Assembly: GCA_001564135.1 (NCBI GenBank)
Contig: LKNH01000002.1
Span: 1 to 37,379 of the forward strand
Length of the DNA: 37,379 nucleotides
Reading direction: 5' to 3'
Source: Halobacteriaceae archaeon Tc-Br11_E2g27
GTDB taxonomy: Archaea; Halobacteriota; Halobacteria; Halobacteriales; Haloarculaceae
The position numbers and the translations under genes were made by a program. This document shows positions 17,356 through 18,680 of this stretch, piece after piece. The notes under the pieces were generated by a model that saw only the letters and a list, made by a program, of their open reading frames with translations, was not told the origin of the DNA and searched no databases. Position 1 is the first letter of the stretch, and each line of letters opens with the position of its first letter.

Positions 17356-18255
17356 CTACTCCGCCGGTAACTCGTCAATAAGCACAGCAGCTTCGCCTTC
17401 GACCACTTTCTGACCATCTTCGTCGAAAACATCGGTTGTCAACTCGTATTTGTTTTGGCCGAACGTCCCGACGATTTCACAGGCAGCGGTGACTTGTTCC
17501 CCAATTTCGACCGGGGAGAGAAAGGAAAGGTCCTGTGAGACATAGATTGTCAGTCCCGGCAATCGAGCAAGTGCAGCACTGATAAGACCGCTCACGAGAC
17601 TCCCATGGACGATACGCTTCCCGAATCTGGTTTCTTCGGCGTAGGCCTCCTCAAGATGTAGACGGTTCGTATCGCCGCTGACTTCGGCATATCTTTCGAC
17701 ATCGTGTTCGCTAAGTGTTTTGCTAAACTCAACTTTGTCACCAACTGTGGTATCGGTTTCCGAGAGTCGACTACATTCAAAGCTCCAATCATCTTTTTCA
17801 TAGGCTGTCTCCGGGCGTGCCTGATAATACGAGTTACTCACAGCATCAGATTCTTCCTGTACTTCGTAGCGATGGAAAACCTGTGGCACGTATCGAATGA
17901 TATCATCGGTACTGACGAGACCGACGAGTTCGTCATCGTCGAGGACCACGAGGCGTGCAATTTCGTGCCCCTGCATGGTTGCCACGGCTTGGCCAACCGG
18001 TGTCTCTGGGCTCGTCGTGATAGCAGGTGCAGACATTACTTCTCGAACGGGCTGTTGGCCAGGTTCATGTGTGGTCGCAAGCGCTTCAAGAAGGTCCATC
18101 CCAGTGACAATGCCAACTACGTCTTCATCCGTCACGACGAGCGAGCCAATGTCTTTTTCAAAACACTCCGCCGCCGCAACTGCAACCGTCTCATCCACAT
18201 CAATTGTTTCCACTGGACTGCTCATAACGTCGGAAACTCGAATTGGAAAGGGCAT
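17356..18255 (-). CDS. Tandem CBS domains fused to a MaoC-like (R)-enoyl-CoA hydratase domain
   Basis: N-terminal CBS pair 'VSDVMSSPVETIDVDETVAVAAAECFEKDIGSLVVTDEDVVGIVTGMDLLEAL...VREVMSAPAITTSPETPVGQAVATM'; C-terminal 'YAEVSGDTNRLHLEEAYAEETRFGKRIVHGSLVSGLISAAL'. Start at MPFPIRV preferred over 18321. Confidence 0.9.
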   Translation of the reverse strand: MPFPIRVSDVMSSPVETIDVDETVAVAAAECFEKDIGSLVVTDEDVVGIVTGMDLLEALATTHEPGQQPVREVMSAPAITTSPETPVGQAVATMQGHEIARLVVLDDDELVGLVSTDDIIRYVPQVFHRYEVQEESDAVSNSYYQARPETAYEKDDWSFECSRLSETDTTVGDKVEFSKTLSEHDVERYAEVSGDTNRLHLEEAYAEETRFGKRIVHGSLVSGLISAALARLPGLTIYVSQDLSFLSPVEIGEQVTAACEIVGTFGQNKYELTTDVFDEDGQKVVEGEAAVLIDELPAE

Positions 18256-18416
18256 GTTCGGTGCTACGAACGAGTACCAATTTAATGTATGGGTGGGCCT
18301 CGTTGGATGAGAATACCCCAATTAGCCTGTTGCAGACATTGAGAGGTCTTTGACACCACCCTTTCAGAGAGATTGCCTTGGTTGGTGGTTAATCTATAGA
18401 GAAAGCAGGCAGAGTG

Positions 18417-18542
18417 CCTCGGGGTCGGACGGAAATCAAAGATCTCCGCGATCTTCAAAAGACCCTGCTCTTTTGGACCTCGCGGAGCAAAGCTCCGCTC
18501 AGTGACGAAACACTCCGTGTTTCGAACCACTTGACCCCGAGG
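18417..18542. repeat. Multi-branched inverted-repeat element (outer stem enclosing four hairpins)
   Basis: Outer cctcggggtc (18417-18426) / gaccccgagg (18533-18542); inner stem-loops at 18439-18455, 18457-18474, 18482-18498 and 18506-18524. Confidence 0.9.
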
Positions 18543-18561: not shown

Positions 18562-18680
18562 CTAGACGTGTTCAGTGCGTTCGATATACTGCTCAATAGT
18601 CTGGCTTGATACCTCACCTGCCGTTTCGACGTAGTACGATTCTTCCCAGAAACCACCAGTTACAGTATCTGTTTCAAAGA
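18562..18680 (-). pseudogene. IS200/IS605-type TnpA C-terminal remnant
   Basis: Minus-strand translation ILRLFETDTVTGGFWEESYYVETAGEVSSQTIEQYIERTEHV*, characteristic of Y1-transposase C-termini; no intact upstream part. Confidence 0.75.

Follow-up and report, generated by a model that had tools for sequence, protein, structure and literature searches.

Small mobile repeats that carry no transposase have been described in Haloquadratum walsbyi as SMR-A (HqIRS42, HqIRS43, and HqIRS55). They are approximately 110 bp long, have inverted terminal repeats, and insert without target duplication, mainly into the palindromes close to the termini of IS605-type transposons and PATEs (PMC3119063). In the 2011 Haloquadratum paper, the mobilisation of SMR-A was called "enigmatic" and inactivation of IS605 was proposed (PMC3119063); no later papers on SMR-type repeats were found in the open-access literature, the scope of our search. 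A second comparable group are the REPs, which have a tetranucleotide at the foot of their hairpin and occur as inverted doublets (PMC6006769); the REPs of one subclass also occur inside tnpA genes. Here, we analysed a four-hairpin region at positions 18417–18542 of the window (the whole 37,379-nt stretch of DNA under study). The region consists of two nested things, the end palindrome of an IS605-type transposon and a repeat inserted in it. The 105 inserted nucleotides very probably constitute a transposase-free, SMR-A-like mobile repeat in the loop of the right-end palindrome; this level of confidence applies to the identity of the insert as such a repeat and excludes the enzyme that moves it.

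The right end of an IS605-type transposon

The original prediction described a perfect outer stem enclosing four stem–loops, approximately 20 nt from a decayed Y1 tnpA with no tnpB following. The outer stem was seen, with cctcggggtc (18417–18426) paired to gaccccgagg (18533–18542) and the hairpins inside, and three of the four hairpins are in the register kept by the relatives. The remaining one, aagatc-tccgc-gatctt, straddles two family hairpins and is an alternative register; at that position, the fourth hairpin of the relatives is CGGAGATC-TTT-GATTTCCG. The element was read on the minus strand because the neighbouring tnpA remnant lies on that strand. When the 161-nt region was folded with RNAfold, a check that had been suggested at the outset, it reached -70.1 kcal/mol, whereas shuffled sequences averaged -48.2 (z -5.24) and 0 of 200 were as low. 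No Rfam family matched the region above the gathering score.

The remnant (18562–18657, minus strand) comprises the last 31 codons of tnpA and the stop codon, the HUH motif being lost. Its codons (18565–18657) match Pfam Y1_Tnp (PF01797) over positions 95–120 of the 121 in the profile (E 4e-6), and 27 of the 31 residues are identical to those of the TnpA of locus L005. Between the stop codon (18562) and the stem (18542) there is a gap of approximately 20 nt, and no tnpB adjoining the region was seen in the window; both points agree with the first description. The neighbouring gene in the window (17359–18264, minus strand) encodes, according to Pfam, a fusion of CBS domains with a MaoC-like dehydratase domain.

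BLAST searches against 101 relatives and plasmids retrieved the same tnpA 3' end followed by a right end, yielding both the related copies and the tnpA–tnpB parents that the original prediction had proposed to look for. The parents are of the IS605 type and carry, divergent from tnpA, both tnpB and a small DUF2080 gene. In nine loci (L005, L008, L011, L013–L015, and L017–L019), the right end is plain, consisting of CCTCGGGGTCAAGCCCCGAGG, which in some loci varies by one or two bases, and then GCACTCGGCCTGCTCCGCCTGTAGA or a similar sequence. L034 and L035 have an identical 22-bp palindrome at both ends, plain in each case. In L016:998–1587, an unrelated insertion of approximately 460 bp interrupts tnpA. 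Because the relatives show the tnpA 3' end and then the plain palindrome, which is repeated at both ends, the outer stem is the near-terminal palindrome at the right end of an IS605-type transposon, and to that extent the suggestion of a structured IS200/IS605 end holds. A near-terminal palindrome common to both ends and next to a Y1 tnpA is what was found.

On the minus strand, the window palindrome is divided into a proximal arm with the loop, CCTCGGGGTCAAG (18530–18542), and a distal arm, CCCCGAGG (18417–18424), which are directly joined in the plain right ends of intact relatives (CCTCGGGGTCAAG^CCCCGAGG). The distal arm is followed by the right-end tail of the host, CACTCTGCCTGCTTTCTCTATAGA (18393–18416, minus strand), whose boundary was set by homology to ...CTGTAGA; the tail is common to the relatives, and unrelated flanks start beyond it. 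The palindrome loop in the window contains the 105-nt insert (18425–18529), which follows the last G of TCAAG and stands out as an extra segment relative to the plain IS right ends. Loops filled by two or four hairpins were found in the window and in L006, L009, L010, L012, L020, and L025, and most of the inserts in these palindromes belong to one family. Each part occurs without the other, the inner part in L027, L038, L062, and L065 and the outer stem in the nine plain loci above, so the region is not a single five-way-junction RNA of one element. The idea of a MITE derivative comes close for the inner part, very probably a transposase-free mobile repeat in its own right, inserted in that palindrome.

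Structure and distribution of the repeat family

The short or core form of the repeat (52–60 nt) is composed of two inverted copies of a 27-nt unit that abut tail to tail. The unit has the layout T-S-G-NN-stem-NNN-stem'-T-S'-A, in which the stem has 8 bp and S and S' are complementary, and both ends of the element start with TSGTTCGA or a variant. In the long form (105–118 nt), a further two hairpins separate the two retained end units, and the stems of these hairpins vary in sequence with pairing kept in each element shown. The window carries this four-hairpin form, TGGTTCGA...GTCCGA on the minus strand. Its unit U1 (18503–18529, minus strand) is TGG-TT-CGAAACAC-GGA-GTGTTTCG-TCA, the 27-nt unit found in dimers throughout the family, and its unit U2 (18425–18452, plus strand), which is inverted (read on the minus strand as CGGAGATC-TTT-GATTTCCG-TC-CGA), corresponds to the 3' half that the family conserves. 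The middle part (18453–18502, minus strand), which is missing from the short form, contains the two extra hairpins GCGGAGC-TTT-GCTCCGC and CAAAAGA-GCAGGG-TCTTTTG; equivalents with other but paired stems are present in L027, L037, L038, L039, L065, and L006. Model R1 matches the region twice (18479–18529 and 18425–18477), and the copies closest to that of the window are long forms in the genomes G005 and G092.

The pairing of the family is maintained by compensatory changes, as the original prediction had proposed to examine. In the alignment, 94.3% of cells were paired and 10 pairs had changed on both sides; for example, the 2/28 pair is G-C in 18 sequences and C-G in five. The covariation score was 0.247, against 0.086 for shuffled and at most 0.061 for slid controls, although kinship among the copies can raise such counts. 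Across 382 kb of loci, 219 of the 27-nt units were found, with none in shuffles; they are essentially always dimeric, and apparent solo units have a decayed partner.

Far from being a unique, unconserved sequence, which had been named as a possible refutation, the family is widespread: its covariance model matched 220 of 251 genomes of relatives, including 163 of the 182 of good quality. When more candidates were scored, there were up to 85 model hits in a genome and tens in several genomes; since the element is nearly symmetric, many copies were counted on both strands, and copies are therefore fewer than hits. In genome G069, of which 2.0 Mb were scanned with strict criteria, there were 12 dimers, all 12 at G^C, together with eight perfect units with decayed partners, and most of these copies lay in near-terminal IS605/PATE palindromes. 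Plasmids are also hosts, among them those of Natronorubrum, Haloferax mediterranei, Natronomonas pharaonis, and Haloarcula, and nearly all of the repeat sites on them have no annotation. Neither viral sequences, searched with a longer pattern, nor GenBank phages gave a match to the repeat.

Insertion sites and routes of movement

Among 89 distinct copies, G precedes the insert in 87 and C follows it in all 89, in a sample skewed toward IS605 ends, as some of its members had been retrieved with an IS query. Comparison of the joined flanks with other loci revealed an uninterrupted site, with no gap at the junction, for 54 of the 89 elements. For example, the right ends of L010 and L011 agree at 99% over 104 nt across the empty site, and a site in the tnpA coding sequence, just upstream of the HUH motif, agrees at 91% over 140 nt between L006 and L036. 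Judging from flank junctions and uninterrupted sites, insertion is precise, with neither duplication nor loss of the target. The hosts of the repeat are IS605/PATE palindromes, tnpA itself, and other, non-IS loci, and further target contexts include GAGCG^CAGCGAG (G250 and G005), GGCTTGG^CCC (G069), and GTTG^CTCCTTGAGG (G000 and G060). The proposition that targets are generally hairpins is unsupported outside the IS605 palindromes, since 16 distinct contexts had no greater tendency to form hairpins than random G^C sites (mean -8.4 kcal/mol, against -7.9 for the random sites); the IS605 palindromes are thus favoured in another way, or the repeat spreads together with them. In IS605 palindromes, the orientation of the repeat is fixed: the TGG end lies toward CAAG in all 56 copies whose ends are unlike (TGG/TCG), which may reflect targeting or common descent.

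Several loci show further arrangements. Three insertions inside the tnpA coding sequence, just before the HUH motif (L006:1301–1354, L014:1776–1829, and L019 near 1776), share one G^C site. In L045:2090–2143 and L012 near 1726, the repeat lies at junctions that join either an IS left-end palindrome to internal tnpA sequence or one tnpA site to another, which suggests deletions through recombination between two inserted copies. L021, L029, L032, and L033 are terminal-only PATEs in which the left and right ends are fused at the 22-bp palindrome, with the repeat inside. An intron was also considered and rejected, as the junctions, inspected by eye, do not fit the archaeal bulge–helix–bulge motif.

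All of the evidence is comparative: for mobility, it consists of filled sites and their empty relatives, and no movement was observed between strains. The mechanism that we propose for the insertion between G and C, without target duplication, in the palindrome loop of the IS605-type element is an enzyme acting in trans, which would recognise the two inverted hairpin units at the ends and join them to G^C. The leading candidate, put forward tentatively, is a single-strand enzyme of the HUH/Y1-like type, which would use hairpins exposed while the DNA is single-stranded, a route proposed for REPINs. The hairpin ends, the lack of duplication, and the fixed orientation in transposon hairpins favour such an enzyme, whereas the constraint on both flanks speaks against it. 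IS200/IS605 enzymes specify the 5' side of the target. A resident Y1 transposase does not appear to be required, in view of several near-complete, element-rich genomes with no listed Y1 match: genomes such as G022, G084, G091, G191, G198, and G245 (99% complete) each have at least 14 model hits and no Y1 among the matches listed, an absence that past or plasmid-borne enzymes could explain. The next candidate, a two-ended transposase, is nearly as likely and equally tentative.

The reading of the repeat as a MITE of an ordinary transposon, with TSGTTCGA as its terminal inverted repeats and a full-length parent to move it, is a version of this mechanistic step and not an alternative to insertion. 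The inverted-repeat ends and the symmetrically constrained target (G^C) accord with it; however, the target is not duplicated, the ends are hairpin units rather than simple repeats, and neither lone units nor longer same-ended versions were found in the 382 kb of loci or the 2.0 Mb of G069, a small sample. We regard this version as rather unlikely.

The relationship between the SMR-A-like repeat and its host can be followed in G069, where contig C1 carries a PATE of approximately 440 nt near positions 46717, 615800, 666859, 705615, 1295622, 1643329, 1783257, and 1834509. These eight copies share approximately 440 nt and are 84–94% identical to one reference copy (itself 100%). In all eight, the left palindrome is plain and the right is filled, and the outer flanks are unrelated; the insert is 97.8% identical among them, compared with 89.4% for the PATE body. 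A close PATE relative at 334143 has a different insert at the same site, and in L024 and L031 the left and right ends of one element carry different forms. Most simply, filling of the right end leaves an element able to transpose, although the repeat may instead have arrived by later invasion or conversion. The eight loci with the repeat in the end hairpin argue against a simple inactivation of IS605, unless the repeat entered after dispersal.

The exclusive right-end position in these eight copies with unrelated flanks, the better conservation of the insert than of the body, and the fixed orientation in IS605 palindromes would also suit a native right end owned by IS605, in which the hairpins are the recognition structure of the transposase and the plain ends are deletion products. 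This is improbable, because the same element occurs inside the tnpA coding sequence and at non-IS loci, many tnpA-bearing elements are plain at the right end and two complete ones are plain at both, and the form differs at the same site in the close PATE and between the two ends of L024 and of L031.

A guide RNA relic, as raised by the original prediction, would here be the omega RNA of a lost tnpB. The parent elements do contain tnpB, and in Halobacterium the omega RNAs are structured, with a hairpin from the transposon end as one component (PMC12558985). However, tnpA and tnpB are divergently oriented in the parents, an arrangement in which an omega RNA would leave the element by its other end, and the region is not at the 3' end of a tnpB with a guide beyond the element end. 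Many intact elements lack the insert, which has no counterpart in Rfam and whose copies lie at either end of an element, in the tnpA coding sequence, and at unrelated loci outside any IS; its two units are optimal on opposite strands, as one pair, G-U in 22 of 23 sequences and A-U in one of 23 in unit 1, does not form in 21 of the 23 in unit 2 when the same strand is read. These observations make an omega RNA relic very improbable. Palindromes are prone to replication template switching, and many copies sit in palindromes, but a product of such switching, rather than a mobile element, would scarcely have a conserved family sequence, fixed ends, and exact junctions across genera, or an insertion in the tnpA coding sequence without a notable hairpin, and we give this origin almost no weight.

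Relation to described systems

The IS200/IS605 elements with divergent tnpB and tnpA are the source of the outer palindrome, the right-end tail, and the tnpA remnant of the window. The insert differs from them in lacking tnpA, in its almost nil distance from end to hairpin, and in the constraint on both flanks. PATEs (PMC3119063) are likewise related as hosts of the insert, the outer stem and tail of the window being IS605/PATE right-end sequence; they have their own near-terminal palindromes and ends (GTGAA...TGTAGA), whereas the insert has neither.

REPINs, or REP doublets with RAYT (TnpA-REP) transposases (PMC3116915, PMC6006769), are also short, free of a transposase, and composed of two inverted hairpin units, an organisation found here, and the short foot of the insert (G|TGG or G|TCG) recalls theirs. 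Unlike REPINs, the units directly abut, the target G^C is fixed on both sides, and the element is archaeal. Because the REPIN-type transposase (NF047646) exceeded the cut-off in 0 of 61 relatives, no cognate RAYT/TnpA-REP flanked by REPs was found, and the element is not filed as a REPIN. It is conceivable, and here we are speculating, that the family is a counterpart of REPINs across the Halobacteria, served by an enzyme other than a REP transposase or a resident IS200 transposase, which would join inverted units to G^C without duplication, and that it rides the end hairpin of its host without stopping the spread of that host.

The closest match is SMR-A, to which the insert was likened by the published description; it fits in the features tested. 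These are the length (approximately 110 bp for SMR-A, against 105 nt in the window and 105–118 nt for long forms, alongside which the 52–60-nt form exists), the inverted ends, the lack of target duplication and of a transposase, and the preference for palindromes, which was seen in the window copy and in the G069 scan, with sampling elsewhere partly IS-biased. The Haloquadratum plasmid PL47 (L277) gave no match to model R1. Unlike SMR-A as described, the family extends over 220 of 251 haloarchaeal genomes, has a short form, a defined 27-nt unit, and an exact G^C target, and is also inserted in tnpA and at non-IS loci. The unit, the exact target, and the spread make the movement of SMR-A and the inactivation of IS605 directly testable, and the family covariance model allows unannotated repeats to be counted or masked in archaeal genomes.
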